DNA of 64,000 nt from Streptomyces sp. NBC_01317 (GTDB lineage: Bacteria; Actinomycetota; Actinomycetes; Streptomycetales; Streptomycetaceae). Shown here one piece after another: positions 9,000 to 28,726 of this stretch (position 1 is its first letter; the number at the start of each line of letters is the position of its first letter). The notes below the pieces were generated by a model. That model ran no database searches and was not told the DNA's origin. It saw nothing but the letters and a program-made list of their open reading frames with translations. Location: contig NZ_CP108393.1 of NCBI RefSeq assembly GCF_035961655.1, forward strand, positions 3,083,501 to 3,147,500, written 5' to 3'. Both the position numbers and the translations under genes were made by a program.

Positions 9000-9341
9000 C
9001 TAAAGAAATGTCTCGAAGTCATCAAGTGCATCCTGCGCCCGCCCTTCAAACCCCGGCACTTCCGTCATACGTTTCACCTGCATCACTGTACGAGGATTAC
9101 AGATTTCCCCATGAATTCGGGCTAGATGCCCGAAGCAGGTGACTGCAAGGAGTTTCACTTGATCGTCGAAGTCCCCATCAAGGCAATCCAAGAGAACACT
9201 CTCCACCCAAGCGCCGTCCGGGTCATTGAACGTCAACGACAAGAGCGCCTCCGTCGCTTGATCCACTGAACCGTTAGCAATTACGGCCAGCATTTCAGCG
9301 CGCCACTCTCGATCAGCCCGTGCAGAATCTTGTGACCTCAC
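9000..9341 (-). CDS. Immunity protein for the adjacent Rhs toxin tip
   Basis: A 113-residue helical protein whose GTG start overlaps the Rhs stop (GTGA), with GGAGAGGGAGG in front of it. Position, size and translational coupling are those of a polymorphic-toxin immunity gene. The sequence (LSLTFNDPDGAWVESVLLD, DDQVKLLAVTCFGHLARIHG) has the helix-turn-helix-repeat look of HEAT-like immunity proteins. I cannot assign a numbered Imm family with certainty. It should bind and block the about 108-residue C-terminal tip of the upstream Rhs protein. The local GC is lower than in the flanking core genes, as is usual for swapped toxin-immunity modules. Confidence 0.75.
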   Translation of the reverse strand: MRSQDSARADREWRAEMLAVIANGSVDQATEALLSLTFNDPDGAWVESVLLDCLDGDFDDQVKLLAVTCFGHLARIHGEICNPRTVMQVKRMTEVPGFEGRAQDALDDFETFL

Positions 9342-12300: not shown

Positions 12301-12493
12301 AGAAATCCGTATCAACCCCTATCCGCAACACATCGCCGCTCTCCAGCCAGGCCACGTTCGTGCCGTCGCGCAGGTTTTCCCTGAGCAGTCGCAAGGCAGC
12401 CGCCAGGTCGATCACCCGGCCGTCGTACGCCACTCCGAGCCATGAAGGCCCGGGGACATTCAGGATGACGTGCCGCAGGGTGAAACGATCCAC
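9338..12493 (-). CDS. N-terminally truncated Rhs protein with PT-HINT domain and toxin tip
   Basis: A 1051-residue product. Residues from about 178 (SGLAGTYQTG) onward are the last part of an Rhs/YD-repeat shell (DHLRRLTEAWTEPDTAC, YDADGNRLI, HLGAREYDSSTGRFLSVDP). Next come a PT-HINT self-cleaving domain (CNSFTPGTKVLLEDGTTKPI to VLVHNCGG) and a toxin tip of about 108 residues (TSPRRVGVDVENGEIVVLD, YHGHVRGWGDLHIDMQN), reminiscent of a polymorphic-toxin RNase-like class. There is no signal peptide and most of the shell is missing compared with the 2287-residue Rhs at 32990-39853. The first about 177 residues are not Rhs but the back half of an orphan immunity-like gene. It is probably a silent cassette, or exported only after recombination. 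Confidence 0.8.
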   Translation of the reverse strand: MDRFTLRHVILNVPGPSWLGVAYDGRVIDLAAALRLLRENLRDGTNVAWLESGDVLRIGVDTDFYLAVQIQESALGSLTEIEKMGLYPVRVPSWAEEEEEPTVSRPADGGYWTEVTARAAVDSTTPTLILERWAHGRCGHRWYLVEDGGLPLGAGSVRRQSLVTAFFGAEIRWAARSGLAGTYQTGVSYKPSGVVGGVSYSAAGALPGGSYSLTYDTNTLRPVAMIGNGYSTTTSYSLTGKPLVHELGDNSDGTRTVITNEYERGTRRLANTRVDRLPIPGVDKYLTYRYDQIGNILSAADVSRSGTDNQCYTYDHLRRLTEAWTEPDTACATTPVGQTIAGPAPYWNSYTYDKTGNRLTETRHDTAGDSSKDLKSTYDYPDAGQPRPHALDSVTTTGPTVTSQDSYTYDETGNTTTRTVSGDTQSLLWDVEGHLAKVTEAGEGGDKVTDYLYDADGNRLIARTPTETTLYLGHTEITVAKGTTTPKATRYIDIGEGNQAVQDNNGAVSFTIADHQGTGQLAVTSNSQTLTQRRTQPFGSPRGTQPTTWPGTKNFVGGTNDTSTGLTHLGAREYDSSTGRFLSVDPLLDTANPQQMNGYSYAENSPITQSDPSGLMACASPAECGGGLQYGNSPAAQSGKPLNDPSWGCPGCDGDSYDDGWWESSGWSAAPISPSIKPGTVMVFPNIHVPADWKYADDYKTKLNEAITRNDLRPGQTSSWITNPEFEDQPEKAAEDIQRLSFIICGKVDGCPKSISSAKAFVLAGVSAQIAAGGGEGSVGRWSAGATKGQCNSFTPGTKVLLEDGTTKPIEDLKVGDKVLATDPETGKTTPKKVTAEIKGKGLKNLVKIALRISNKRGSSTTTVTATDGHPFWVPELHEWIDATDLRAGQHLQTSTGGARVQITALERQTRPATVYNLTIADLHTYYVLAGATPVLVHNCGGSLYEAGGKHGASARGSSRGTNSAEPQNGQAALDNSVPVKGTSPRRVGVDVENGEIVVLDRTVQRPCKCGGGGTNDIYHGHVRGWGDLHIDMQNSLRRAGLVDRRGRVIG

Positions 12494-14928: not shown

Positions 14929-15645
14929 ATGACTCCCGCCGCACCCGACTCCTACGCGAACCCCCCACAGCCCGCCGAAGGGGGACCGGTCGAGATCCAG
15001 CTGCCGAGCCCGGTCAAGCCCAAGCTGCGCGGCTGGCTGCACGCGGGCATGTTCCCCGCCGTCCTGGTCGCGGGAGTGACCCTGATCGTCCTGACGGACT
15101 CGGTACGGGCCCGGGTCGCCTGCGGGATCTACGTCCTGACCGCCTGCCTGCTCTTCGGCGTCAGCGCCATATACCACCGGGGTACGTGGGGGCCGCGCGG
15201 CGAAGCCGTACTGCGCCGGCTCGACCACGCCAACATCTTCCTCATCATCGCGGGCACCTACACCCCGCTGACCATGCTGCTGCTCCCCGACGCGTCGGGC
15301 CGTGTCCTGCTCTGGGCCGTCTGGATCGCCGCGCTGGCCGGCATAGCCTTCCGGGTGTTCTGGGTCGGCGCCCCGCGCTGGCTGTACACCCCCTGCTACA
15401 TCGCGCTCGGCTGGGCCGCCGTCTTCTTCCTGCCCGACTTCATGCGGGCCGGTGGCATCGCCGTCCTCGTCCTCGTGGTCGTCGGCGGTGTCCTCTACAG
15501 CGCGGGCGGCGTCATCTACGGACTCAAGCGCCCGAACCCGTCACCGCGCTGGTTCGGCTTCCACGAGGTGTTCCACTCCCTCACCCTGGCCGCCTTCATC
15601 GTGCACTTCATCGGGATCTCGCTGGTGGCGTACGAGTACTCCTGA
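14929..15645 (+). CDS. Hemolysin III / YqfA (PAQR superfamily) membrane protein
   Basis: A 238-residue integral membrane protein with about seven hydrophobic segments. The PAQR/HlyIII signatures are present: SAIYHR in the first conserved block, RRLDHANIFLIIAGTYTP in the second, and FHEVFHSLTLAAFIVHF near the end. These supply the Ser, His and Asp residues that in the PAQR superfamily form a zinc-binding, hydrolase-like site. The bacterial members are not proven haemolysins; roles in membrane homeostasis have been proposed. Good length match to the family. It is followed by a TetR-family gene on the same strand, and a strong inverted repeat sits before its own start. Confidence 0.9.
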   Translation: MTPAAPDSYANPPQPAEGGPVEIQLPSPVKPKLRGWLHAGMFPAVLVAGVTLIVLTDSVRARVACGIYVLTACLLFGVSAIYHRGTWGPRGEAVLRRLDHANIFLIIAGTYTPLTMLLLPDASGRVLLWAVWIAALAGIAFRVFWVGAPRWLYTPCYIALGWAAVFFLPDFMRAGGIAVLVLVVVGGVLYSAGGVIYGLKRPNPSPRWFGFHEVFHSLTLAAFIVHFIGISLVAYEYS

Positions 15646-15669
15646 GCCACGCACACCCATCCTCTGCCC

Positions 15670-15699
15670 GGCAGCCGCTGTCATTTGACAGTGGCTGCC
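15670..15699 (+). promoter_or_regulatory. 30-bp inverted repeat upstream of the TetR gene
   Basis: GGCAGCCGCTGTCA and TGACAGTGGCTGCC are complementary except for one G-T position and are separated by TT. The element lies 24 bp after the hlyIII-type stop and 21 bp before the TetR ATG. It contains a TTGACA hexamer. With no T run after it, an autoregulatory operator is more likely than a terminator, but either is possible. Confidence 0.5.
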
Positions 15700-15720
15700 G
15701 AAGAATCGCTGTGCCGGACA

Positions 15721-16353
15721 ATGGGGATCATGGCCGCCCCCTCACCTCACCCGCTCCAGGACCCCCCGCCGCGCCCCGGCCTCCGCGAGCGCAAGAAGCT
15801 CAGGACCAGGACCGGGATCCGCCGGGCCACCTACCGGCTCATCGCCGAACAGGGGTACGAGGCGACCACCGTCGAGCAGATCGCGCGGGCGGCCGAGGTC
15901 TCCGCCTCCACGGTCTTCCGCTACTTCCCGGCCAAGGAGGACATCGTCCTCTGCGACGCGTACGACCGCGTCCTGGCTGCCGGGTTGCGCTCGCGGCCCG
16001 CCGGGGAGTCACCCCTGGACGCGCTGCGGTTCACCCTCACCGACGCCCTGCGCACGCTCCTGGCGGAGGAGCACGACGAGATCGTCCAGCGCACCCGGCT
16101 GATGGTGGAGGTCCCCGCGATCCGCGCCCGGACGGCCGAGACCAGGGCGGTGACGGGCAGCCTGCTCACCACCGTGCTGGCCGAGCGCACCGGCCGGGAG
16201 CCCGGGGACCTGGAACTGCGCGTCCTCACGGCGGCGGTCCTGGGCGCGCTGGGCGAGGCGGCCCTGTACTGGGGCGAGCACGGCTGCCGCGACGATCTGC
16301 TCACCCTGGTCGGCCGCGCGTTCGACACGCTGGAGAGCGGGCTGCGGCTCTGA
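15721..16353 (+). CDS. TetR/AcrR family transcriptional regulator
   Basis: A 210-residue regulator. The N-terminal HTH is typical: RRATYRLIAEQGYEATTVEQ, then IARAAEVSASTVFRYFPAKEDIV (residues about 28-70). The C-terminal ligand domain is helical, with no recognised specificity. ATG 15721 and ATG 15730 are both possible; neither has a strong ribosome site, so a leaderless transcript is conceivable. The 30-bp inverted repeat immediately upstream suggests autorepression. Its neighbours are the HlyIII-type gene (same strand, upstream) and a convergent aldehyde dehydrogenase gene 31 bp downstream; either could be a target. Confidence 0.9.
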   Translation: MGIMAAPSPHPLQDPPPRPGLRERKKLRTRTGIRRATYRLIAEQGYEATTVEQIARAAEVSASTVFRYFPAKEDIVLCDAYDRVLAAGLRSRPAGESPLDALRFTLTDALRTLLAEEHDEIVQRTRLMVEVPAIRARTAETRAVTGSLLTTVLAERTGREPGDLELRVLTAAVLGALGEAALYWGEHGCRDDLLTLVGRAFDTLESGLRL

Positions 16354-16384
16354 GGAAGGCAACCGCAACCGGACGTAAGACCCC

Positions 16385-17815
16385 TCACCCGAACCGGGGC
16401 GTCAGCCGTACCCGCGCCGTGATCGTCTTGGGCCGCTGGTACTCGTGCAGCGCCAGCGTGCTGAGGTCCGTACCGTGCCCCGACGCGCCCCGGCCCCCGT
16501 GCGGCAGCTCCGCCGTCTGGACCAGGTGGCAGTTGAGCCACGCCTCCCCCGCGTTCAGCCGGGCCGCCAGGTCCAGCCCCGCCGCGATGTCCCGCGTCCA
16601 CACACTCGCGGCCAGCGCCTGCGGCACCCCGTTCGCCAGGGCGACGGCCGCGTCGACACTCTCCGCCGCCTGTACGGTCAGCAGCGGGCCGAACACCTCT
16701 TCCACCACGGCCGGATCGTCGTCGGGCAGCTCGGAGAGCACCCGCGCCGGACGCCAGTAGCCGCCCTCCTCCCCTTCCGCCGGGACGAGTTGGCCGGCCG
16801 CCGACACCTTCGCCGCCGAGCGGGCCACGATCCGGTCGTAACGCGCCGCCTGGTCCGCGTTGTTGAGCGGACCGAAGTCCCGCCCCGCCTCCCGCTCGCG
16901 CATCGCCCCGGCCAACTGGGCGACCACCGAAGCGTGGTTCTCGCGCAGGGTGATCACCCGGGCGGGTACGGCGCAGCTCTGCCCGGCGTTGTACGTGGTC
17001 GCCTCGGCCAGTTCCTTCCAGGTGTCCTCCGGGGCGTCCGGCAGGACAACTACCGGGCTGTTGCCGCCCAGTTCGAGGCTGACGCGCCTCGTGCCGGCCC
17101 GTGCCGCCACCTCCGCCCCGGCGACCGCGCTGCCGGTGAAGGCGATCAGGTCCACGTCCGCCGCCACCAGCAGCCGCCCGGTGTCCCGGTCGCCCGGCAG
17201 CGTCTGCACCACACCGTCGCCGAGCGCCTCGCGCGCGTGCTCGGCGAGGAGCAGCAGCGAGTCGGGGGTGGTCTCGGCGGGCTTGACGACCACCGTGTTC
17301 CCGGCGGCGACGGCGGGGGCGCAGCGCCAAGCGGCCATCATCAGCGGGTAGTTCCAGGGCACGACCACGGCGGCGACCCCGAGCGGCTCCCAGCGGACCC
17401 AGCTCTCGTGGCCCGCGACCAGGCCGCCCGCCGCCGGGGACGCCTGGGTGCGCGCCGCCCAGGCGTAGAAGCGGAAGAGGTCCGCCGCGTTCTCCACCTC
17501 GCCGGCCGCCTCGTGGAACGGCTTGCCCGTGCCCGCCCGTTCGGCGGCGACGTACCGTTCCGCGTGCTCCTCGATCAGGCCCGCCAGCCGGTCCAGGCGC
17601 CGGGAGCGGTCCCTCGGGGTCAGGGCGCGCCAGCCCGCGTGGGCGAGGCGGCCGGCGGCGACCACGGCGGCGACGCGCCGCTGCCGCGCGGCGGCGGAAC
17701 TGCCCCGTACCTGTCCTGTACGGGGGTCGAGCAGCGGGACCGGTTCGGCGAAGTCGGTGTCGGCGAGGCCGGCGTGACCGAAGTCGCTGTCCGCGAAACC
17801 CTGAGTGGCATCCAT
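16385..17815 (-). CDS. NAD(P)-dependent aldehyde dehydrogenase
   Basis: A 476-residue ALDH-superfamily enzyme. Catalytic features are in order: the oxyanion Asn region VVVPWNYPLMM, the cofactor loop FTGSAVAGAEVA, the general base Glu in VSLELGGNSPVV, the nucleophile Cys in YNAGQSCAVPARV, and the EEVFGPLLTV motif. The closest general type is the betaine/aminobutyraldehyde dehydrogenase-like branch, but the substrate is unknown. ATG 17815 has GGAGG in front, unlike the longer reading. It follows the asparagine-synthetase homologue by only 11 bp, so the two are co-transcribed and may act on the same metabolite. It is the last gene of the six-gene minus-strand cluster. Confidence 0.9.
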   Translation of the reverse strand: MDATQGFADSDFGHAGLADTDFAEPVPLLDPRTGQVRGSSAAARQRRVAAVVAAGRLAHAGWRALTPRDRSRRLDRLAGLIEEHAERYVAAERAGTGKPFHEAAGEVENAADLFRFYAWAARTQASPAAGGLVAGHESWVRWEPLGVAAVVVPWNYPLMMAAWRCAPAVAAGNTVVVKPAETTPDSLLLLAEHAREALGDGVVQTLPGDRDTGRLLVAADVDLIAFTGSAVAGAEVAARAGTRRVSLELGGNSPVVVLPDAPEDTWKELAEATTYNAGQSCAVPARVITLRENHASVVAQLAGAMREREAGRDFGPLNNADQAARYDRIVARSAAKVSAAGQLVPAEGEEGGYWRPARVLSELPDDDPAVVEEVFGPLLTVQAAESVDAAVALANGVPQALAASVWTRDIAAGLDLAARLNAGEAWLNCHLVQTAELPHGGRGASGHGTDLSTLALHEYQRPKTITARVRLTPRFG

Positions 17816-17826
17816 CGTGTCCTCCG

Positions 17827-19587
17827 TCAGCTGATGTCGTAGGCCCGCAGCCACAGTTCGAGGGTCAGTACGAGCCAGAGCTTGCCGCCCTGCCGGGGCA
17901 GCAGCGCGCCCTCGCCCCGCATCCACGCGCGGACGGTGTCCTGCCGGAAGAGCCCCCGGGCGCGCGCCTCCCGGCCGAGCAGCAGGTCACCGGCCAGTTC
18001 GCGCAGCGGCCCGCCGAGCCACTGCTGGACCGGGACCCGCATGCCGCTCTTGGGCCGGTCCACGACCGTGCCGGGCAGCAGGTCCCGTACGGCCTCCTTG
18101 AGCACCCACTTCTCCACCGCCCCGTTCAGTTTCCACCGGGGCGGCGTCGCGAAGGCGTGGTCCACCACGCGGCGGTCGAAGAGCGGGGAGCGGCCCTGGA
18201 CGGACTGCGAGGAGGTCAGCCGTTCGACCTTGGTGAGGATGTGGTGGGCGCCCTTGGTCCGCAGGTTGCAGTGGAGCAGCTGGTTGAGGAGGTGGTCCAT
18301 CCGGCCGTCCCCGGGCGCGGGCCGCAGGTAGGGCGTGACGAAGCGCTGCGGCGCGGGGGCGGTGGCCAGGGCGTCCAGCGCGCCGGGGGTCAGCAGGTCG
18401 GGCAGATCGGTGAAGCACTTGCGGTACGAGCGCAGATACGCCGTCTCGCGCGCGTCCTCGGCTTCCCCGCCCGGCAGTTGGCGGCGGTGCATCTCGTTCA
18501 CCAGCATCGGCAGGTTCTTCGGGCCGCCGAACACCGGGTCGCCGCCCTCCCCGTTGAGGACAACCCGCAGTCCGTCCCCCGCCACAGCCTCGGCGAGCAT
18601 CAGATTGGGTACGGTCAGCGGATCGCCCACCGGGCTGTCGAGCAGGGCCGCCGCCTCCGCGAGACGCGCGGCGACCGCGTCGCCGGACACCGAGAGCACC
18701 CGGTGCCGGGTCCCGCAGTGGGCGGCGACGAGGCCCGAGTACCCGAGTTCGTTGGGGAGTTCGGCGCCGAAGCTGATGGAGTACGTGTGCACGGGGTGGG
18801 AGTGCAGCTTGGCGGCGAGGGCGGTCACCAGCGAACTGTCCACACCACCGGAGAGCAGCACCCCCACGGCCTCGGCGTCGGGCAGCCGCATCGCGGTCGC
18901 CTCCTCCAGCAACTCCCGTAGCCGCAGGGCGTACGACTCCCCCGAAGCCCCACCGGCGCCGAGTTGTTCCGCCGGCTCCCAGTAGTGCTCCTCCGACACC
19001 GAGCCGTCGACCGCGAGGCGCAGACAGCGGCCCGGCAGCACCTCCCGTACCCCTCGCAGCAAGGTCTCCTCGCCGGGCAGGTAGGCGAAGGTCAGGAACG
19101 ACCGTACGGCGGCCAGTTCGAGGCCCGTGCCGAGCGCGGGCCACCGGCGCAGGGCCCGTAGCGAGGTCGAGGCAGCCCAGCAGTCCCCGGCGCGGGCGTA
19201 GAAGAGGGTACGGGCACCCACCTGGTCGCGGATCAGGACGAGATGGCCCTCCTCCTGCACGGCCAGCGCGAACATGCCCTCCGCCGCGAGGATCCCCGCC
19301 GCGCCGAGCCGTACCCAGCAGCGCAACAGCAGCTCCCCGTCCGGGCAGTCGGGCGGGGCGGGCGAACCGGCCGTGGCGAGGGCGGCGAACAGCACGGGCC
19401 GGTTGTGGAGCGTGACCTCGCCGACGGCGGTACGCCCGTACGCGCTGAACGGCCCGGTGGCGTAACCGGGTTCGTCCTCGATCAGCGCCAGCGGGGGCGC
19501 GCCGTCGCGCACCGGGAGGCCCATCGCCGCCAGTTGGTCCCTGGCCCGTCCGGGCTCCGCCGCCAGGCAGGCGCAGAAACGCGCCAT
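17827..19587 (-). CDS. Asparagine synthetase-like ATP-dependent amidoligase lacking the N-terminal Cys
   Basis: A 586-residue AsnB homologue. The C-terminal synthetase half is intact: the PP-loop LLSGGVDSSLVTALAAKL binds ATP, and further motifs include VVLNGEGGDPVFGG and the final KWVLKEAVRDLLPGTVVDRPKSGM. True AsnB starts with MCGI, and the Cys after Met is the glutaminase nucleophile. Here the start is MARFCAC, so the Cys lies at residue 5 or 7, and the usual RGPD and RLAI motifs are also absent. The glutaminase half is therefore probably inactive, as in beta-lactam synthetase-like relatives. An ammonia- or amine-dependent ligation, or intramolecular amide formation, is more likely than asparagine synthesis. 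ATG 19587 has GAGAGG upstream. Confidence 0.85.
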   Translation of the reverse strand: MARFCACLAAEPGRARDQLAAMGLPVRDGAPPLALIEDEPGYATGPFSAYGRTAVGEVTLHNRPVLFAALATAGSPAPPDCPDGELLLRCWVRLGAAGILAAEGMFALAVQEEGHLVLIRDQVGARTLFYARAGDCWAASTSLRALRRWPALGTGLELAAVRSFLTFAYLPGEETLLRGVREVLPGRCLRLAVDGSVSEEHYWEPAEQLGAGGASGESYALRLRELLEEATAMRLPDAEAVGVLLSGGVDSSLVTALAAKLHSHPVHTYSISFGAELPNELGYSGLVAAHCGTRHRVLSVSGDAVAARLAEAAALLDSPVGDPLTVPNLMLAEAVAGDGLRVVLNGEGGDPVFGGPKNLPMLVNEMHRRQLPGGEAEDARETAYLRSYRKCFTDLPDLLTPGALDALATAPAPQRFVTPYLRPAPGDGRMDHLLNQLLHCNLRTKGAHHILTKVERLTSSQSVQGRSPLFDRRVVDHAFATPPRWKLNGAVEKWVLKEAVRDLLPGTVVDRPKSGMRVPVQQWLGGPLRELAGDLLLGREARARGLFRQDTVRAWMRGEGALLPRQGGKLWLVLTLELWLRAYDIS

Positions 19588-19678
19588 GGTCACCTCTCCC
19601 GCTCGTCGTTCTGTACATCTCCGAAGGCCACTGCGAACTCGCCTTGCCGCAAGGCGCGTTCAGGGGGGACCGGTCGGC

Positions 19679-20230
19679 TCACCCGAAGTCGTCGTCGTTC
19701 CAGCCGTCGCCGTCGTCGGAGTCCCAGTCGCCCGTGTCCGCGTATCCGCCGCCCGAGTCCCCGCCCGACGAACTCTGCGCGGCCTCCTGCCGCTGCCGCA
19801 GTTCCTCTTCCTCTTCCGGGGTGAGGGTCGACGGCGGGTAGTGGGCGGCCGTGATCGCGAGGGCGGCGAGGCCCAGTCCGCCGAGCACGACACCGACGCG
19901 CCCGCCGAAGGAGGTCCGGTTGACCATGACCGTCTCGCCCTGGCCCCAGACCGTGCGGCCGTAGCCGATGTCCCGGCCGTAGGTCACCCGCCCGTCCTCG
20001 TGGACCCGTTTGATGATGCGCTCGCCGAGGAGTTCGTCGGTGCCGGAGGCGCCCCGGTTGTCGCGCCAGCGCACCTTGCCGCCGTCGCGCCGCCGCCACT
20101 CCTCGCGCCCGCGCCGGAAGTCGCCGTCAGGGTCCGCGTCCGTGTCCGTGTCCGCGTCCGCGTAGACGCGGTGGACGGTGCCGTCGGCGAGCAGGTCGTC
20201 TCTGTACGGGATTTCGCGTGGCCGGTTCAT
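19679..20230 (-). CDS. Acidic single-span membrane protein, unrecognised
   Basis: A 183-residue protein, not recognised. The N-terminal two thirds is charged and contains an Asp-Thr/Ala repeat (YADADTDTDADPDGDF) and the motif DGRVTYGRDIGYGRTVWGQG. One hydrophobic segment (GVVLGGLGLAALAITAAHY) lies near residue 125, and the C-terminus is low-complexity Ser/Gly/Asp ending DDGDGWNDDDFG. It would be a membrane-anchored protein with an acidic tail that could bind cations. It sits between the second Toprim-like gene and the asparagine-synthetase homologue, in the same orientation and with gaps of 61 and 91 bp. Confidence 0.7.
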   Translation of the reverse strand: MNRPREIPYRDDLLADGTVHRVYADADTDTDADPDGDFRRGREEWRRRDGGKVRWRDNRGASGTDELLGERIIKRVHEDGRVTYGRDIGYGRTVWGQGETVMVNRTSFGGRVGVVLGGLGLAALAITAAHYPPSTLTPEEEEELRQRQEAAQSSSGGDSGGGYADTGDWDSDDGDGWNDDDFG

Positions 20231-20291
20231 CGTCTCTGGTCCTCGGTTCGCCTGGTCCTCGGTGTGCCTGCTCGGTTTTCTGCCGGGGCGG

Positions 20292-21200
20292 TCAGTTCGC
20301 CGGCCAGGTCATGAATCCCGCCGTACGGAGTTCCCGCAGGCCGGTCCACACGGAGTGGGCGGGCGTGCGCGGTCCGCGCACCAGGCGCTGGACCGTACGG
20401 AGCAGCCGCGCCGGGTGTACGGCCTCCACCTCGGCCGTACGCCCCCGCGCCAGCCAGTCCCGCTCACGCCGGTCGAGCCCGGCGGGAAGCGTGGCCTCAC
20501 CGGGCGAACGCGCCGGATCGCGCGCCGCGTTGAGCCGCATCGCGATCGCGTGGCGCGGGACGAGCCCGAGCGAGGCCACCCGTACCCCCGGATGGTCGGC
20601 GCGCAGGCGTGCGGTCAGCGCGATCCCGGCCACGCTCGCGTCGTGCAGGACATGGACCGTGGCGCCCTCCACCCGCGCGAGCCCGGCCAGCAGCCGGGGG
20701 TCGAGCGGCAGGTCGTCGGCGGCGAGCACGGGGCACGCGGCCTCCAGGTGCAGGTCGTTGGCGAGGAGCATGCGGGCCACGGAGCGGCTCTGGCAGACGA
20801 GCAGGCGGGGCAGACCGTAGTCGTAGAGGTCGGGCTCGGGGGACCCACCGTCCGGCGCACCGAAACCCGGCGCCGGGTCCGGCCCCAGCAGCCCCGGCAG
20901 CCCCGGCAGCCCCGGCAGCCCCGGCGCCTCACCCCGCCGCCGCGCCAGTGCCTCCTCGAACCGTCCGTACGGTACGGGCGGGGCCGGTGTGAACGGGAGC
21001 GCGCGCGGCAGCCGGCCGACGGGACGTACCACCCGGCACAGCTCGTAGTACAGCTGACGCTCGGTGAACCGGATCCGCCCGGGCGCCCCGGCGCGCGCGA
21101 CGGCGGTTTCGAGCGCCCGGCCCAGGAGCCGCCCGCGCACGCCGGGCGCGCCACCCCCTCCCCGTACGCCCCCTACCCGTACCTCTCCTCCCCCTGTCAC
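20292..21200 (-). CDS. Winged-helix plus Toprim-like protein, paralogue of the gene at 22053
   Basis: A 302-residue protein of unknown function. Residues 45-54 read FTERQLYYEL, similar to the winged-helix motif that opens Spo11/topoisomerase VI A-type proteins. After a Gly-Leu-Pro repeat linker (residues 93-105) comes an alternating beta/alpha region: LLVCQSRSVARMLLANDL (133-150), VHVLHDASVAGIALTARLR (182-200), VRVASLGLVPRHAI. This order resembles a Toprim fold, with DASVAG at the place of the DxDPxG loop, but the catalytic acids are replaced. It ends GFMTWPAN, like the paralogue (GFLTWPDA). GTG 21200 overlaps the cupin stop. The fold assignment is inference. Confidence 0.7.
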   Translation of the reverse strand: MTGGGEVRVGGVRGGGGAPGVRGRLLGRALETAVARAGAPGRIRFTERQLYYELCRVVRPVGRLPRALPFTPAPPVPYGRFEEALARRRGEAPGLPGLPGLPGLLGPDPAPGFGAPDGGSPEPDLYDYGLPRLLVCQSRSVARMLLANDLHLEAACPVLAADDLPLDPRLLAGLARVEGATVHVLHDASVAGIALTARLRADHPGVRVASLGLVPRHAIAMRLNAARDPARSPGEATLPAGLDRRERDWLARGRTAEVEAVHPARLLRTVQRLVRGPRTPAHSVWTGLRELRTAGFMTWPAN

Positions 21201-21994
21201 CGCGGCCCCTCCAGCGCCGACGCCACCCGCCGCAGCCCCGCCGCCAGGCGCTCGCGCCCGGTGGTGGTGCCCACGCCCTCGACCCGCTGGACGCGTTCGA
21301 TGTCCCGCAGGGCGGCCGCGAGCAGCCCGAAGTCCGTCCCGACGCGGCTGACCGTCCCCACGGCCCGGCGCGGCTCGCGCACGATGTCCTCGGTGGCCCG
21401 GCGTTCGGCCTCCGACGCGGTGATCGCGTAGTCCTCGTGGTCGATACCGAAGCCGGTGTTGGCGGCGAGGATGTTCAGCGGGCGCCCGCCCCGGTTGGCG
21501 AAGGAGTGGGGCATCATCTCCGGGATCCGGATCATCGCCCCCGGGACCAGCCGGATCTCGGTGACCCGGCCGCGAGCGGCGTCGTACAGACCGCAGGACG
21601 CGTGGCCGAGGCTGAGGACGACGTGCTCGCCGCCGTGCGCGTGCGGGGTGAACGCGCTGCGCGGGCCGACCACCCCGAGTTTGAAGGTGGCGTTCGACGG
21701 GCGCTCCGGGGACGTCCCCGCGTCACCCACGAGATAGTGGGCGAACTGCCCGGCGTCGATGAACGGCAGGAACTCCTCACGCGGGCCCAGCTCCCGCGCC
21801 CCCTCCCGGTCCGCGAACAGCACCCGCCCGTCGGCGCCGAGCCGGAACACCTCCACGCCGAAGGGGAGCCGCTGGGAGAGCCGCTCCATGTCCCGCACCG
21901 CACCGCGCACCCAGCCCCGCGGTCCCTGTCCCTGTCCCTGCCCGTGGCCGTGCCCCTGCCCTTGCCTGCCGGGGCCGGCGTCCGTGTGGGACAT
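21197..21994 (-). CDS. Cupin-domain protein
   Basis: A 265-residue protein. After a Gly-Gln-His repeat at the N-terminus, residues about 95-185 hold a cupin barrel. Motif 1 is present as FTPHAHGGEHVVLSLGHAS and supplies two His and one Glu. Motif 2, RIPEMMPHSFAN, supplies the last His. A metal-dependent dioxygenase, isomerase or ligand-binding role is possible; the substrate cannot be inferred. The C-terminal about 70 residues are helical (FGLLAAALRDIERVQRVEGV). The start has GAGAGGGGG upstream, and the stop overlaps the next gene's GTG, so it is tightly coupled to one of the two Toprim-like paralogues. Confidence 0.8.
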   Translation of the reverse strand: MSHTDAGPGRQGQGHGHGQGQGQGPRGWVRGAVRDMERLSQRLPFGVEVFRLGADGRVLFADREGARELGPREEFLPFIDAGQFAHYLVGDAGTSPERPSNATFKLGVVGPRSAFTPHAHGGEHVVLSLGHASCGLYDAARGRVTEIRLVPGAMIRIPEMMPHSFANRGGRPLNILAANTGFGIDHEDYAITASEAERRATEDIVREPRRAVGTVSRVGTDFGLLAAALRDIERVQRVEGVGTTTGRERLAAGLRRVASALEGPR

Positions 21995-22052
21995 CAGCGC
22001 CCCCTCTCGCTCAGCTTGCCTGGTTCGGTACGAAGCTCATGCCGCGCCCCCG

Positions 22053-23096
22053 TCATGCCCGGCCCGCGTCCGGCCACGTCAGGAAGCCGAGCGCCTCGGC
22101 CTTGCGCCGGTCCGGGTCGCCCCCGGGGTCCGTGACCCGTTCCAGGACGGCCGAGACGGCCTTCAGGAGTGTCGCGGGCCGCGCGCCGACCAGCGGGCTC
22201 CACCAGCCGTCGAGCAGCCACATCAGCTCCTCGGACGTCAGCGTGCCGGCGGCTCGCAACCGCCGGATGGCCCCCGGCTCAGGGGCGGTCCCGTGGGCCA
22301 CCACCGCGCCCGGCGCGTGCATGACGACGCGCGGGCGCAGCCCCGCGTCGACCACCCGCCGTCCCGGGAGCGCGTCCCGGACGGCGAGCACCTGCACGCT
22401 GCCGATCGCTCCCGCGTCGTGCAGCACGACGACGGGCACGTCGTTGGGCAACGCCTGGACGGTGGTGGCGATCTCGACTCCGTACCGCGCGGGAATGTCG
22501 TTGGCCGCCAGGAAGGACGCGACGGCCAGGTCCGCGCAGAGGAGTGCGGCCCGGGGCCGTTCGGGCCGGGGCGTGCGGCGCAGGGTCGCGTCGTCCACGA
22601 CGCCGGGGGGCAGCTCTCCGTACGCGAACTTCCAGCGGGCCATGGCCTGTTCGCGGAAGGGGCTGAGCGGAAGCGTGTCGTACCGCTTCCTGCCGTCCCG
22701 TACGTTCCCCACCGCCGCGATGAAGGCGCCCACGACAAGGAGCGCGCCGAGCGCGGTCAGGATGTACCCCTCCCCACCGATGGCGACTCCCGCGACGCCC
22801 AGCCCGCCCCCCACCGGCAGCCCGAACGCCACGCATCCGATCGCCGAGGGGACCCCGCTCCCGGGGCCGCGCACGGAGTGCAAGGTCTTGCGGGACAGCG
22901 CGAACCAGAGCTGGCTCTCGGTGATCTTCATTCGGCCGTTGTCGGTCAGCTTCGTGGCCACACGCAGGAAGCGGGCGTCGTGGAGCCGCAGGGAATTGGC
23001 CCTGGGCTCCAGGGCGAACGCCTTATGGCACTTGGAGCAGGTGTAGGAGGGGCGTTCCTTGTAAAGGACGTTCTCCTGGCAGTGCGGGCATATCAC
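22053..23096 (-). CDS. Zinc-ribbon membrane protein with winged-helix and Toprim-like regions
   Basis: A 347-residue protein, probably the first gene of the cluster. It opens with a zinc ribbon (Cys3, Cys6, Cys20, Cys23: CPHC and CSKC). Next comes ITESQLWFALSRK (58-70), matching the winged-helix motif of the paralogue at 20292. Two or three hydrophobic segments (85-130) follow, then a beta/alpha region, ALLCADLAVASFLAANDI (184-201) and VVVLHDAGAIGSVQVLAV (222-239), equivalent to the Toprim-like part of the paralogue. The C-terminus is LGFLTWPDAGRA. GTG start with GGGGGACC upstream. The two proteins probably form a pair with different membrane attachment; the role is unknown. Confidence 0.7.
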   Translation of the reverse strand: MICPHCQENVLYKERPSYTCSKCHKAFALEPRANSLRLHDARFLRVATKLTDNGRMKITESQLWFALSRKTLHSVRGPGSGVPSAIGCVAFGLPVGGGLGVAGVAIGGEGYILTALGALLVVGAFIAAVGNVRDGRKRYDTLPLSPFREQAMARWKFAYGELPPGVVDDATLRRTPRPERPRAALLCADLAVASFLAANDIPARYGVEIATTVQALPNDVPVVVLHDAGAIGSVQVLAVRDALPGRRVVDAGLRPRVVMHAPGAVVAHGTAPEPGAIRRLRAAGTLTSEELMWLLDGWWSPLVGARPATLLKAVSAVLERVTDPGGDPDRRKAEALGFLTWPDAGRA

Positions 23097-23265
23097 CGAG
23101 GTCCCCCCGTCGGTCCGTCGATCACGGCCACACCCTCACGGTGTCAGGGTCACGGGCCACGATCGCCGCCCCATCGTAGATCCGTTGCGGGAACGCGGCC
23201 AGAGTCGGACGTACGACTCTCCGTGGAAGCCGTCATGAACAATTCGCCGGAGGCGCCGGGCATAC

Positions 23266-23309
23266 GGGTGCCCGCCACAGCCGCGGGGCGGCGGCTGTGA
23301 CGGGCGCCC
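23266..23309 (-). terminator. Hairpin terminator after the GlxA-like gene
   Basis: Arms of 19 bp with two mismatches (GGGTGCCCGCCACAGCCGC against GCGGCTGTGACGGGCGCCC) and a 6-base loop, 29 bp after the stop at 23338. It marks the end of the four-gene glycan operon. Confidence 0.7.
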
Positions 23310-23337
23310 GGGACGTCGAAGCGCACCGGCCCCGGTC

Positions 23338-25806
23338 TCAGGACCTCGTGCTCTTCACATCTCCCTTCCCGCACGCGGAGCCGTCCCTGTTCGGGTCGAG
23401 CCTGAGCGGGTCGTCCTTGCCGTTGACCTTCAGCCGGCCGTACTCGTTCGCCGCCAGCCAGTCGCAGCGCGCCTTCGTCGTCGCCTTCACCGTGTCGGGG
23501 AAGACCGTCGGGACACAGACGTTCGCCGAGCCGTAGTGCCGGTCGCAGCCAGCGATCTGCTTGCTCACCGGCGCCGAAGTCCGCTTCTTCTGCGGCTTCT
23601 TGGCGGGCTTCGCCAGGTCACCGGCGAAGTCGTGGACGTGGGCCGAGTCCGCCGCCTTCGCGGCGAGCGCCGGCGGGCCGCCCAGGTGCACCCACTTGGC
23701 AATCGAAGGAATGCCGTTGGCGTCGACCGCGAACAGCATGTACCAGCCGGGCGGCGCCAGGTTCGGGTTGCTGGTGACGTTGAGGTCGACGTTGTTGCCG
23801 TCGACAGTCAACGGCAGGTCCACGAACCGCTGGTTGGGGTCCGACGAGTGCGTCACCGCGGCCGGCCGGATCAACTCCGCCTTGGCGATGGGCCGGTCGA
23901 CCGTGATGCGCTGCGTGTCGCCGTACAGCCACTCGGTGTCGATCAGCGAAGTGATCCGCGGGCGCGGGCCCTTGAGCAGGTACGGCGGGGTGTAGAGCGA
24001 AACGGCTTGGTTCCAGGTGCCGTTGCCGGGGTTGTCGCCCGTCGTCATGACGCGGCCGTCGGGGAGCAGGAACGCGGACGAGTGGTAGCCGCGCGCCTCC
24101 GGGTCGGCCGTGACCGGGTCGAAGGTGTTGGTCACGGGGTCGAACAGGGACGACTCGTACACCGGGTTGGCGCGGTTGTGCAGCGCCCCGCCCGTCTCCA
24201 GCACCTTGCCGTCGGGCAGCAGCACGGCGGAGCCGTACATCTTGCCCTGGCCGCCGGTCTGCGGCTGCGGCCCCGCGCCGAGGTCGACCGTGCCCTGGGG
24301 CAGCGGCGGTCCCGCGACGTACTGCGGGCTGGGTGCCTTGAGGTCGATCAGGTCGGTGATGCGGTTCGCCTCCGGGTTGGAGTCGATGTTGCCGCCGCCG
24401 ATGGTCAGCACCCGCTGGTCCTGCGCGGGCGGCAGCAACACGCTGGCCGACTGGTCGCGTTCGTCCTTGTTCCGCAGGCCCGGGATGTCCGTGACGGTGT
24501 TGGTGTCGTAGTCGTAGATCGCGGATCCGGTGCCCGGGGTACCGTTGCCGAAGACATGGCTGCCGGAGTAGAAGAGGCGGCCGTCCTGCATGAGGATCAT
24601 CGACGGGTACAGGCCCCAGTACGACCAGGTCTGGTTGACCTGCCAGAGCGGCAGCCACTGGTTCTGCGCGGCCGACCAGCGCTCGGCGGTGACCGATCCG
24701 CTGGAGTCCTCGCGCAGCCCGCCGAACGACAGCACGTCACCGTTGCCCATGACCGTGGCGGACGGGTACCAGTGGCCGTCGTTCAGGTCGTTGGTCCTGG
24801 TGTACGCCTCCGTGTCGGGGTCGAAGATGTACGAGTCCTTGAGCCCCTGGTAGCCGATCGTGCCGTCCGCCGACGGGTAGCCCTTGTTGCCGCTCATCAC
24901 CAGCACCCGGCCGTCGGCCAGTTGGACATGGCCGGAGCAGAACATGTCGTCGGGGGTGGGGATCGTACGGTAGGTGCCGGTCTCGGGGTTGTAGACCGCC
25001 GAGGTGAACGTACCGGCCTCGAAGTTCTCGGTGCTGTTTCCCGAGCCCGCGATCAGCAGGACCTTGCCGTTGTTGAGGACCACCGAATGCATCGAGCGCA
25101 CGGGGTTGTCGGTGGGCAGGACCTCCCACCGGCCGTCGGCGCACTCCACCGTCGTGCCGGTGCAGGTCGGCTCCAAGGTGGGCGGGGCGACCTCCTCCAT
25201 CACGTAGTCGTCGGTGGTCACACTGCCCGTGCCGTACACGGAGACACCCCAGGTGATCCGGTCGGTGCCGGGCGGGATCTCGGGGGTACGGACCTCCGCG
25301 CGCTGGTAACCGGCGCTCAGGTCAAGCGTCTTGAGGTCGGTCCAGTACTGCCAGCCGGCCGTGGTGTCGTGCCGGAAGAGCGTGACCGACACATCGGGGG
25401 TGGTGGACTTGTACCAGAGCGAGAGGTCGTACTGCTTGCCGGGCGCCACGGCCGGGGCGCACGCCGCCGTCTCCGTGATCAGCGCCTTGCGGTCGCCGTC
25501 GGCCCGGCGGGTCAGCTCGACCTTCAACGCCTTGGTGCCGGAGTGGGCGTCCGCGACGGTGGCGAAGGTGAAGTCGTTGTCGCCCCAGCCGGACTGCTCC
25601 CAGCAGTACGGCATGGTGTCGCCACCGGTCCCGGCGGTCTCGAAGCCGGGGTTCTTGATGAGGTTCGTCCCGGCCGCCGCCGGCTGCTGGGCGCTGAGGA
25701 ACAGCCCGGCGGTCAGGGCGGCGACGGCGAGCAGGGCGGTACGGCGCCGGGGGCGCGGGGGCGTACGAAATCCGTTACGGACACGGCTCGTTCTCAGAAA
25801 TCTCAC
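23338..25806 (-). CDS. GlxA-like secreted radical-copper oxidase with N-terminal binding domain and Excalibur-like tail
   Basis: An 822-residue exported protein. The signal peptide (ALLAVAALTAGLFLSAQQPAAAG) is followed by a galactose-binding-like module (NLIKNPGFETAG, residues 48-205), then the kelch/DUF1929 galactose-oxidase fold (about 225-690). The copper-radical residues are recognisable: Cys290 in DDMFCSGH with Tyr347 in HWYPSA (the Cys-Tyr crosslink), Tyr-His in RGYHSSAFLLPDGRV, and the His in VTHSSDPNQR. The tail ends with an Excalibur-like calcium motif (RLDPNRDGSACG). GlxA is needed for deposition of the CslA-made glycan at hyphal tips; the same role is inferred here. GTG 25806 overlaps the upstream stop. 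Confidence 0.85.
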   Translation of the reverse strand: MRFLRTSRVRNGFRTPPRPRRRTALLAVAALTAGLFLSAQQPAAAGTNLIKNPGFETAGTGGDTMPYCWEQSGWGDNDFTFATVADAHSGTKALKVELTRRADGDRKALITETAACAPAVAPGKQYDLSLWYKSTTPDVSVTLFRHDTTAGWQYWTDLKTLDLSAGYQRAEVRTPEIPPGTDRITWGVSVYGTGSVTTDDYVMEEVAPPTLEPTCTGTTVECADGRWEVLPTDNPVRSMHSVVLNNGKVLLIAGSGNSTENFEAGTFTSAVYNPETGTYRTIPTPDDMFCSGHVQLADGRVLVMSGNKGYPSADGTIGYQGLKDSYIFDPDTEAYTRTNDLNDGHWYPSATVMGNGDVLSFGGLREDSSGSVTAERWSAAQNQWLPLWQVNQTWSYWGLYPSMILMQDGRLFYSGSHVFGNGTPGTGSAIYDYDTNTVTDIPGLRNKDERDQSASVLLPPAQDQRVLTIGGGNIDSNPEANRITDLIDLKAPSPQYVAGPPLPQGTVDLGAGPQPQTGGQGKMYGSAVLLPDGKVLETGGALHNRANPVYESSLFDPVTNTFDPVTADPEARGYHSSAFLLPDGRVMTTGDNPGNGTWNQAVSLYTPPYLLKGPRPRITSLIDTEWLYGDTQRITVDRPIAKAELIRPAAVTHSSDPNQRFVDLPLTVDGNNVDLNVTSNPNLAPPGWYMLFAVDANGIPSIAKWVHLGGPPALAAKAADSAHVHDFAGDLAKPAKKPQKKRTSAPVSKQIAGCDRHYGSANVCVPTVFPDTVKATTKARCDWLAANEYGRLKVNGKDDPLRLDPNRDGSACGKGDVKSTRS

Positions 25807-27047
25807 CGGCTGATCCTCTCCGTACGAGCACGCGTCACGGCCACCCGGCTCCGCGCCACCGTCCGCCCCGCCGCGGCGGCACGCCGCTCCCGCTTGGGCA
25901 GATAGACCAGCGCCTCCGTGCCCGCGAACCGCAGGACGAACGTCGCCAGCAGCGCGCACGCCGTCGCCGTCAGCACCCCCATGGAGAACTGCGAGACGAA
26001 CAGCGCGATCAGCGGGATGCGCAGCAGCAGGTCGGCGTTGGCGAGCAGCGCGAAGCGGCCCACCCGGTCCGCCCAGTGCCGGTGGACCCGCCGGCTGCGG
26101 AAGAGCAGCACCTCGATGAGGACGAAGTTCCATATCACGCCGAACTGGTTGGCCAGCACCTCGGCAGGCAGGTAGTGCAGCCCGGCCGCCGTCAGTCCGG
26201 CCAGCGCGAGCAGGTTCGGTACGAAGCCGGTCAGCCCGATCAGTCCGAAGGCCAGCATCCGGGCGACCGGCGAGGCCGTCCGCAGCTCCACCAGGTGGCG
26301 CAGGAAGCGCAGGCCCTCCTTGGCGGACGACTTGGACTCGCCGGCGAACCGGTCGCGGAAGACGAACGGCACCTCGGTGGGCTGCTCGGGCCGGCACCGT
26401 ACGGCCAGCTCCAGCAGGATCTTGTAGCCGAGCGGCCGCAGCGCCTCGGAGGTGACGGCACTGCGCCGGATCGCGAAGAATCCGCTCATCGGGTCGCTGA
26501 TGCCGCGCAGGCGCCCCGGGAAGATGCCCTTGGTGAGCCAGGTCGCGGCGCGGGAGACGGCGACGCGGTAGCCGCCGGCCAGTCCGGCCCGGCTGCCGCC
26601 GTCGATGTAGCGGCTGGCGACGACGAGGTCCGCGGACTCCCGCTCGCCCGCCGCGACCAGGTCGGGCACGAGGGCGGGCGGGTGCTGGAGGTCGGCGTCC
26701 ATGACGACGATCCACTCGGAGCCCGCGGCCTTGAGGCCGACGACGACGGCTCCGCCGAGTCCGCCGTCCGGGGTCTCCCGGTGGATGACGCTGACCGGGA
26801 AGGGGCAGTCCTGCGCGGCGGCGGTGATCACCGCGGGGGTGTCGTCCGTCGAGTCGTCGACGAAGAGGACTTCGCAGGGCAGTCTGGCCGGGACGGCGTC
26901 GGTGAGCTGGCGGAGCAACTCCCGTACGTTCCCTGACTCGTTGAAGGTCGGGATGATGACGGTGACGGCTCCGGGCTCGGCCACGGCCGTCGCTTCCAGC
27001 TCCGGGTCGCCGAGCTCGCCGGCTCCGACGGGGGGAAGAATGCTCAT
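25803..27047 (-). CDS. Dpm1-like GT2 glycosyltransferase fused to a GtrA membrane domain
   Basis: A 414-residue protein. Residues about 25-270 are a GT-A fold of the dolichol/polyprenyl-phosphate mannosyltransferase type: VTVIIPTFNESGNV, EVLFVDDSTDDTP, VMDADLQHPPALVPDL. Residues about 280-400 are a GtrA-like domain with four hydrophobic segments (FGLIGLTGFVPNLLALAGL, LIALFVSQFSMGVL). It should load a sugar from a nucleotide donor onto polyprenyl phosphate at the cytosolic face and help it flip, giving the donor for the GT39-type gene upstream. The ATG has GGAGG in front and overlaps the previous stop by 4 bp (ATGA). Confidence 0.9.
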   Translation of the reverse strand: MSILPPVGAGELGDPELEATAVAEPGAVTVIIPTFNESGNVRELLRQLTDAVPARLPCEVLFVDDSTDDTPAVITAAAQDCPFPVSVIHRETPDGGLGGAVVVGLKAAGSEWIVVMDADLQHPPALVPDLVAAGERESADLVVASRYIDGGSRAGLAGGYRVAVSRAATWLTKGIFPGRLRGISDPMSGFFAIRRSAVTSEALRPLGYKILLELAVRCRPEQPTEVPFVFRDRFAGESKSSAKEGLRFLRHLVELRTASPVARMLAFGLIGLTGFVPNLLALAGLTAAGLHYLPAEVLANQFGVIWNFVLIEVLLFRSRRVHRHWADRVGRFALLANADLLLRIPLIALFVSQFSMGVLTATACALLATFVLRFAGTEALVYLPKRERRAAAAGRTVARSRVAVTRARTERISR

Positions 27048-28726
27048 CGCTTGCCTCCCACGATCTGCCGGATCTCGATCCGGTCCTCGCCGGCGCCGAA
27101 CACGGCGACGGCGGTCGAATGGTTGAGGGCGTCCCGGACGTTGGGCAGGTCGCGGGCGTCGCGCCGTACGGTCGGGGAGGCGACGACGTAGTCGAGGTCG
27201 CGCCACCCTCCCGGCATGGTCTTGGTCACGGCGGGGTCGAGGTCCGCCTTGTAGAACCAGATCGCGCCCAGACCCGGTTCATACCCGGCGTGGACCAGGT
27301 CGAGCCACAGCGCGTCGTCGACCAGCACCCGGGCCGAGGACGGGTCGGGCACTTCCTTCGCCATCCATGAAGCGGCCGCCCGGTAGGGGGCGTTGGCGTC
27401 GGCGGTGATCGCGGTGTGGTTGCCGTCGTACCACCGCGGTACGACGTACACGAGCGAGGTCGCGGCGAGCACGCCGAGGGCCGTCCAGCGGGCGACGGTC
27501 AGCGTGCGGCCCTCCTGGGGCCCGCGTCGTTTGCGGAGGATCGCGTGGGTGATGCTCGCGGCGCCGCCCGCCAGCACCAGGGCGAGGAACGGCAGCCCCT
27601 GGATGACGTACATCGCGGGCAGGTAGCCGGTCGGGCGCAGCGCCACGAGGGTGAGGATCACCACGGCGAGGGCCGGTCCGGCGAGGGCGCGGGCGGTGAC
27701 GGACCAGCGCAGGGTGAGCATGAGCAGGACGGCGCCGGCGATCCCGCCGAGCGGCAGGATCCGGTCGTAGTAGAGCCAGGAGCGCAGGACGCCGTTGGAG
27801 CCCGTACCGCTGTCGAGTACAAAGCCGGAGCCGGGGCGGCTCATCTGGTAGACGATGCCGTCCCACAGCGACACGTGGCCGGCCCCCGCCAGCAACTCCC
27901 CTTTGAGCAGGGCGAAGAGGGGGTACGACAGGCCGATCAGCGCGCAGGCGGTGATGGCTCCCGTCACCGCGAACTTACGGGTGTCGCGATGGCTGTGCCG
28001 CCACATGGTCACCAGCAGCGCGGGCAGGATGACCAGCATGGTCTCCTTGGTGAGCACCGCGACGGCGGCGGCGAGACCGGCGGCGAAGTGGTGCCAGAGA
28101 TGGCGGTTGGGCGAGGCCGCGAGGCAGAACGCCAGCAGCATCCACATCACGGCGATGTTGTCGAGGAAGATCTCCCGCTGGAGCACCACGGACAGCGGGG
28201 ACAGTCCGAACAGGACCATCGCCAGGCCGGCCGCCCAGCGCGGCAGCCACAGCCGGCGGGCGAGTATGTAGAGCAGTACGGCGCTGGCCGCGCTGACGAC
28301 CAGCATCGAGAAGCGCATCGGCGCGACGGTCATCGACTCGGGTGAGATGAGCGACGGCAGCCAGGTCAGGAACGCGATCTGCATCCAGCCGAGCGGCGGA
28401 TGGTCGTACCAGTACGTGTAGTGGGCGAGGCCCTTGCCTTCCTGGACCGCCCAGGCCTGGGCCAGGTAGGTGCCCTCGTCGTCGCTGAGGGTGGGGTAGT
28501 GCTGGATGTTCCAGCCCTGGACGATCAGGATCGCGACGAGCAGCACACCGCACAGCAGCAGATCGGACCGCGAGCTCCTGAACCGCACCACCGGGCGGAC
28601 CGTGAGGTGCCGCTTGTCCTTCTTCCTGCCGCCGTCGTGCTTTCCGCCGCCGTGTCGTCCGGGGGCAGGGCTTCGCTGCGCGGGGACGGCCGTTTCGGTC
28701 GTCACCGCGGGGAGGGTGGAGGTCAC
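27044..28726 (-). CDS. GT39/ArnT-like polyprenyl-phosphate sugar transferase
   Basis: A 560-residue polytopic membrane protein with about ten or more hydrophobic segments. The first extracytoplasmic loop carries the GT-C acidic motif region LSDDEGTYLAQAW followed by YWYDHPPLGWMQ, characteristic of the PMT/ArnT/GT39 group, which use lipid-linked sugars on the outer face. A soluble C-terminal region (ADANAPYRAAASWM, VVASPTVRRDARDLP) follows the last span. The donor is presumably the lipid-sugar made by the next gene; the acceptor may be the polymer of the first gene or a secreted protein. It overlaps both neighbours by 4 bp. The N-terminal about 45 residues are charged and cytosolic. Confidence 0.85.
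   Translation of the reverse strand: MTSTLPAVTTETAVPAQRSPAPGRHGGGKHDGGRKKDKRHLTVRPVVRFRSSRSDLLLCGVLLVAILIVQGWNIQHYPTLSDDEGTYLAQAWAVQEGKGLAHYTYWYDHPPLGWMQIAFLTWLPSLISPESMTVAPMRFSMLVVSAASAVLLYILARRLWLPRWAAGLAMVLFGLSPLSVVLQREIFLDNIAVMWMLLAFCLAASPNRHLWHHFAAGLAAAVAVLTKETMLVILPALLVTMWRHSHRDTRKFAVTGAITACALIGLSYPLFALLKGELLAGAGHVSLWDGIVYQMSRPGSGFVLDSGTGSNGVLRSWLYYDRILPLGGIAGAVLLMLTLRWSVTARALAGPALAVVILTLVALRPTGYLPAMYVIQGLPFLALVLAGGAASITHAILRKRRGPQEGRTLTVARWTALGVLAATSLVYVVPRWYDGNHTAITADANAPYRAAASWMAKEVPDPSSARVLVDDALWLDLVHAGYEPGLGAIWFYKADLDPAVTKTMPGGWRDLDYVVASPTVRRDARDLPNVRDALNHSTAVAVFGAGEDRIEIRQIVGGKR

Follow-up and report, generated by a model that had tools for sequence, protein, structure and literature searches.

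The window, meaning the whole 64,000-nucleotide stretch analyzed here, covers positions 3083501–3147500 of an 8.07-Mb single-contig genome, and among the matches listed its closest database proteins come from Streptomyces. The first-pass annotation described six minus-strand open reading frames (ORFs) separated by short gaps or a 4-bp overlap, and all six were found. We named them, in transcription order, ZnTM, CUP, PAR, TM, ASN, and ALDH, with the following features in window coordinates:

22053–23096, minus strand: ZnTM, 347 aa, with a zinc ribbon, a winged-helix-like segment, a membrane hairpin, and a Toprim domain; core
23019–23093, minus strand: ZnTM zinc ribbon CPHC...CSKC (Cys 3, 6, 20, and 23), from sequence
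22128–22583, minus strand: ZnTM Toprim domain, residues 172–323, from predicted-model comparison
21197–21994, minus strand: CUP, a cupin of 265 aa with a conserved HAHGGEH...PHSF; accessory
20292–21200, minus strand: PAR, soluble winged-helix-like/Toprim paralogue, 302 aa; core
20373–20855, minus strand: PAR Toprim domain, residues 116–276, with Gln137 at the Glu position and DxS for DxD
19679–20230, minus strand: TM, 183 aa, with a conserved N-terminal domain, one hydrophobic span, and an acidic variable tail; core
19682–19693, minus strand: C-terminal DDFG of TM, from comparison of TM copies
17827–19593, minus strand: ASN, Cys-less AsnB-like synthetase, 588 aa (586 from the second Met); core
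18514–18552, minus strand: ASN motif GEGGDPVFGGPKN, with Pro/Pro at the Glu-Tyr dyad of amide-forming relatives, from alignments
16385–17815, minus strand: ALDH, 476 aa, with the catalytic Cys and Glu motifs kept; accessory

ZnTM and CUP are 58 bp apart, CUP and PAR overlap by 4 bp (21197–21200), and gaps of 61, 85, and 11 bp follow between PAR and TM, TM and ASN (91 bp if the second Met is the ASN start), and ASN and ALDH. The original ORF call for ALDH (513 aa) begins within ASN; a start at 17815 gives 476 aa. A scan of 15600–23700 found no sigma-70 promoters or terminators, a result that is uninformative because shuffled sequence is expected to yield just 0.1 and 1.3.

Distribution of the gene set

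We compared 49 non-duplicate loci besides the window, after dropping duplicates L073, L098, L104, L105, and L107. ZnTM, PAR, TM, and ASN occur together in 43 of the 49, and the remaining six are affected by contig ends or contig splits (L058 and L059 of one genome, L074 and L076 of another, L093, and L106). Two of the 43 have an incomplete ASN: in L075 the gene is cut by the contig end, and L087 has broken copies of both ASN and TM. Judging from sequence comparison, we hold firmly that ZnTM–PAR–TM–ASN forms a conserved four-gene core of unusual make-up that is kept together. The proposal of one conserved unit was thereby borne out, as homologues were co-localized and not scattered singly. Besides the cluster's own genes, no family recurs in more than 10 of the 49 neighborhoods.

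Among 150 Streptomycetaceae genomes, strong PAR matches (E < 1e-51) were present in 16, the window's genome included; a 17th genome (G074) was left out of the count, its match covering 45 residues at E 1.7e-4. ASN orthologues (E < 1e-190) occupy exactly the same 16 genomes and lie near PAR. Their full-length matches are 70–79% identical, the window's own excluded, and the best E in the next genome is 4.6e-56. CUP was matched in 16 of the 150 genomes; leaving out a weak match in G131, the 15 strong ones all fall within the PAR/ASN set. A Nocardia ZnTM query matched 4 of 296 class-level genomes, again counting the window's own.

The genome scan gave 33 named loci, and loci occur in Streptomyces, Kitasatospora, Nocardia, Rhodococcus, Amycolatopsis, Dactylosporangium, Virgisporangium, a Frankia MAG, and a Solirubrobacteraceae MAG; the TM homologues listed include sequences named Streptomyces venezuelae. 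The two MAG contigs, L098 (the same as L075) and L106, have three flanking gene families in common, probably through cross-binning of one organism. Because both contigs may belong to one organism, we count five families and a doubtful sixth.

Gene order in most CUP-containing loci is CUP, one or two ZnTM, PAR, TM, and ASN, mostly followed by ALDH, and in Nocardia it is ZnTM–PAR–TM–ASN–CUPB, where CUPB is a second, dissimilar cupin. The window differs in that ZnTM precedes CUP. The two loci closest to the window's ASN, L101 and L108, each have, after CUP and before PAR, an additional short ZnTM ORF (95 and 144 aa) that seems to have been lost in the window. Many adjoining genes overlap by 4 bp or lie no more than 60 bp apart, with starts taken from a simple ORF caller. 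Pairwise identities are correlated for ASN and PAR (Spearman 0.84, 741 pairs), ASN and TM (0.69, 861 pairs), and PAR and TM (0.61, 741 pairs), which is partly a reflection of shared ancestry.

The Toprim paralogues and the TM protein

ZnTM and PAR had been read as Spo11/Toprim-like paralogues, and this reading stood up. Profile–profile comparison linked them with a probability of 99.6 (E 5.5e-25) across the winged-helix-like and Toprim parts, and predicted models of the two reached pTM 0.76 and 0.80. With VIA-align, TopoVI-A, MksG, JetD, and Spo11 took ranks 1–8 for PAR and 1–9 for ZnTM. Plain Foldseek against the PDB returned no match below 0.001 for either Toprim model (best E 3.9e-3 for PAR, to JetD, and 0.12 for ZnTM, to an unrelated structure), and the TopoVI-A alignment fell in the expected register at a non-significant E of 2.7. 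The fold assignment thus draws on VIA-align, the agreement of two separate models, and this non-significant alignment. Pfam, NCBIfam, and PADLOC returned nothing above a curated cut-off, or nothing at all, for PAR, ZnTM, and TM. The zinc ribbon is also well kept, its four Cys being present in 56–58 of 59 aligned ZnTM rows.

Members of the Spo11/TopoVI-A/JetD Toprim lineage are known as DNA cutters. With the acid positions placed by the non-significant TopoVI-A alignment, Gln replaces the Toprim Glu in 60/60 PAR rows (59 of the 120 matches listed, out of 404, plus the window), and 55 of the 59 ZnTM rows (all 58 matches plus the window) have a residue other than Glu there. ZnTM keeps DxD in 26 rows and Glu in 4 but never both, so the full acidic triad is absent from all 119 rows; the partial retention makes a residual metal site in ZnTM possible. 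ZnTM and PAR have the shape of DNA-cutting enzymes yet apparently cannot cut. The suggestion that a Toprim pair implies a nucleic-acid reaction loses its footing here, since the catalytic Glu is gone from all PAR and most ZnTM rows. Tyr51, a candidate counterpart of the catalytic Tyr in the winged-helix (5Y-CAP) domain of TopoVI-A/Spo11, is invariant in the 60 PAR rows and lies in a segment that the fold match does not cover. In their predicted models, ZnTM and PAR share the Toprim fold type of TopoVI-A, Spo11, JetD, and MksG, whereas ZnTM adds membrane spans and the zinc ribbon and the acidic triad is lost. Wadjet/MksBEFG systems have SMC-type ATPase and kleisin genes next to the Toprim gene; among the gene families compared in the neighborhoods, no ATPase or SMC-like partner family recurs.

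TM was confirmed as a single-span acidic protein: a conserved region at the N-terminus is followed by one hydrophobic span and then by an acidic tail 45–98 residues long. Its C-terminus is FG in 44 of 45 non-duplicate ORFs and DFG in 43 of 45 (window's included), the sole copy without FG being the broken frame in L087. Background ORFs from the same loci end in FG in 2/480 cases and in DFG in 0/480. Such constancy at the very end of aligned TM copies argues that the free terminus is recognized, as a substrate or as a docking end; the acidic tails of SSB type are a parallel for a recognized C-terminal end. TM directly precedes ASN in all 45 loci where both were called. In 44/44 copies the side before the span is the more positive, which under the positive-inside rule places the tail probably outside the cytoplasm.

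The AsnB-like synthetase and the accessory enzymes

ASN matches Pfam Asn_synthase above its cut-off (2.3e-75). In 43 non-duplicate full rows, the window's included, the SGGxDSS ATP loop, RPKSGM, and GEGGDPxFGGPKN are kept throughout, and Cys2 is present in just one (L089, VCHG), in line with the first-pass reading of a Cys-less AsnB homologue. The usual AsnB-family motif is DE(V/L)F(G/A)GY, onto which we placed the Glu-Tyr dyad by residue spacing from the description in the consulted part of PMC13060819. According to that part, the dyad is common to the five AS-like enzymes compared, and PesC lost all activity as Y368F and part of it as E363A. AsnO/TIGR03104, TsrC, ScdTA, and PesC share with ASN the two-domain AsnB fold and the ATP loop, whereas ASN is without the N-terminal Cys in 42/43 rows and has Pro/Pro in place of the dyad, as placed from that description, in 43/43.

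Beta-lactam synthetase and CarA also have the AsnB fold, with altered substrate motifs (TGYGADIPLGGM and LTGYGSDLLFGG) and, as in ASN, no dyad. These two enzymes form amides without glutamine. Their similarity to ASN is weak (E 2e-15 and 1.2e-13), and motif and partners differ. From the missing glutaminase Cys and Glu-Tyr dyad we infer that the ASN acceptor would be an amine other than glutamine-derived ammonia. ASN could also be altered beyond adenylation.

ASN does not reach the cut-off in any of the NCBIfam models listed for it. The best-scoring curated model is TIGR03104 (N-acetylglutaminylglutamine amidotransferase, NAGGN), where ASN has 240.8 bits and the cut-off is 570.1; as positive controls, five genuine members from the same bacterial family scored 928–976, and they keep an M/V-CGL start and ADEVFAGY. 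ASN scored 213.7 against 267.1 bits on TIGR01536 (glutamine-dependent asparagine synthetase) and, although AsnB-like as is the XrtA/PEP-CTERM amidotransferase, far below the cut-off of that model (TIGR03108, 225.5 against 816.9). The lasso peptide cyclase model NF033535 was likewise rejected (113.7 against 525 bits). Among the nearest other relatives of ASN, five are NAGGN amidotransferases and a sixth (L115) is an ordinary asparagine synthetase, so these gave no clue to the substrate.

The accessory genes sort the 43 complete loci into types: 27 carry CUP, 14 carry CUPB, none carries both, and neither cupin was detected in L075 and L092. CUPB follows ASN in 12 of its 14 loci and is upstream and divergent in L054 and L085. 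ALDH had been counted as part of the set; it is present in 22 of the 27 CUP loci and absent from all 14 CUPB loci, which removes it from the core. Its identity is secure (Aldedh 1.9e-107, above the Pfam cut-off), and the 21 ALDHs located immediately downstream of ASN retain NAGQSC and SLELGGN. The window's CUP scores below the Pfam cupin cut-off (17.8 against 27.2 bits), but all 28 CUP rows keep HAHGGEH...PHSF, the cupin ligand motif. The CUP and CUPB profiles showed no similarity to each other, and neither matched a solved structure. In the ASN tree a single clade (98/95) takes in all CUP loci together with L076 and L092. L054 and L085, both from Streptomycetaceae with CUPB, lie outside it, a placement in the tree that suggests transfer. 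On a Rhodococcus opacus plasmid (L137:7998–13010), a CUPB homologue (66%) precedes AMP-binding, TauD, and aminotransferase genes with the core absent, perhaps as part of another biosynthetic cluster.

A related locus lies in a second phylum, on a conjugative plasmid of Gloeothece verrucosa PCC 7822. Its ASN homologue (43.4% identity over 88%) groups with the ASN clade (99/97), but on a long branch and with unlike composition; it has Pro/Pro at the dyad position and no Cys2. Convergent to it is a 429-aa ZnTM relative (hhalign 99.1%, E 4.5e-19, residues 1–405) whose Toprim positions read Cys-Gln and Asn-Ala-Asn and which ends in FG; the viral contigs searched held no relatives of it. A TM homologue was not found in this locus. 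The single case suggests that ASN and ZnTM are the oldest pair. Neighboring genes encode a PLP decarboxylase and another AsnB-like protein, a setting that fits small-molecule chemistry at this one locus and presumably parallels XrtA clusters. The second AsnB-like protein (L135:13151–14878) also has no Glu-Tyr dyad (GDQLFAGW).

A proposed amide-bond-forming module

Our preferred reading, to which we assign a probability of roughly 45% for the full mechanism, is that the conserved, putative operon encodes a membrane-associated amide-bond-forming module with a retired Toprim scaffold. ASN would bind ATP and adenylate a carboxylate, and the amine that accepts it, in the same molecule or in a second one, would not be ammonia derived from glutamine. 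Earlier or later steps on that small molecule would fall to the metal cupin and ALDH. ZnTM, anchored and carrying the zinc ribbon, and PAR would be retired relatives of topoisomerase VI-A/JetD, their Toprim and winged-helix-like domains serving putatively as a protein–protein scaffold and not as a nuclease. TM may anchor the assembly, with its free Phe-Gly C-terminus as the recognition end.

This mechanism is supported by the co-occurrence and order of the core, the correlated identities, and the Toprim fold with its lost acids, together with the ASN ATP loop kept in the absence of dyad and Cys2 and the conserved cupin and ALDH motifs. The Gloeothece PLP decarboxylase and second AsnB-like gene point to small-molecule chemistry, and the Rhodococcus plasmid genes next to the CUPB homologue point the same way. 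Against it stand the predicted outside location of the TM tail, which would be beyond the reach of a cytosolic ASN after insertion, the lack of a TM homologue in the Gloeothece locus, the possible residual metal site of ZnTM, and the weak plain Foldseek matches.

Under a tentative alternative, which we consider unlikely, ASN would act on TM itself. TM would then be a RiPP-like precursor, or a carrier, directed to the membrane; ASN would adenylate the carboxylate of its free C-terminal Gly or Asp side chains in its tail, amidation, conjugation, or cyclization would follow, and the cupin and ALDH would do the tailoring. The near-constant FG end on a tail of such variable length and the invariable position of TM before ASN speak for it, as does the FG end of the Gloeothece ZnTM relative, a rarity among background ORFs. 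According to the consulted part of PMC13060819, AsnO, TsrC, ScdTA, and PesC take the C-terminal carboxylates of peptides as substrates, but the dyad described there for five AS-like enzymes is Pro-Pro in ASN. The outside prediction for the tail also weighs against TM as substrate, as does the Gloeothece locus, where TM is missing and FG is a single case. Similarly doubtful is the more specific idea of a novel type of system for protein C-termini, in which an AsnB-fold enzyme activates or recognizes the strictly conserved TM Phe-Gly carboxylate and Spo11-family Toprims, now off DNA, act as peptide-handling scaffolds.

The first-pass annotation had called a conflict system plausible. Improbable, in our estimate, is a conflict or DNA-related system in which a Wadjet/Gabija-like nuclease derivative or its regulator would be accompanied by enzymes making a signal or toxin. 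JetD and MksG are indeed its Toprim kin, the family-level distribution is patchy, and the diverged Gloeothece copy sits on a conjugative plasmid. Against this, the Toprim Glu is lost as described above, and E236A and D279A variants of MksG were drastically impaired (consulted part of PMC10123090); no further gene family recurs in most neighborhoods. The idea gained no support from PADLOC, which matched none of the six proteins or nine neighboring window proteins, or from 50,697 phage records, which held no PAR match at E 1e-3. Ordinary osmolyte or amide metabolism, with a NAGGN-type amidotransferase beside unrelated genes, was already disfavored and merits hardly any weight: TIGR03104 is the best-scoring model, but ASN falls far short of the scores and motifs of true members, and four genes are kept together.

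Returning to the amide-bond-forming module, its appeal is that two co-inherited Toprim branches, their cutting residues lost and one of them in the membrane, share a putative operon with a probable amide-bond enzyme. If confirmed, it would represent a new use for the Spo11/TopoVI-A/JetD Toprim fold and a new AsnB-family reaction that dispenses with the ammonia domain and the Glu-Tyr dyad; an unknown natural product or type of protein modification may come with it. We call the gene set new because its parts do not qualify as members of the known systems they were compared with and the open-access literature searched held no description of it, in agreement with the earlier remark that no described pathway has this set.

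Several other genes deserve mention. The window's genome encodes another AsnB-like protein (L148, C1:1839190–1840332) with GHGGDVVLES at the substrate motif, unlike standard asparagine synthetase. Upstream of the cluster (23338–29931, minus strand) lie nearly abutting genes for a galactose-oxidase-like protein (GO-like_E_set, Kelch), a GtrA-type glycosyltransferase, a PMT-like protein, and a family-2 glycosyltransferase; except for a relative of the galactose-oxidase-like gene in L091, these do not recur with the cluster elsewhere. Convergent genes downstream (14929–16353, plus strand) encode an HlyIII-family membrane protein and a TetR regulator with an MftR-type C-terminal domain. At 9338–12493 on the minus strand, a 1051-aa ORF carries a pretoxin HINT domain (PF07591, 7.3e-23), a domain that occurs in polymorphic-toxin-like proteins.
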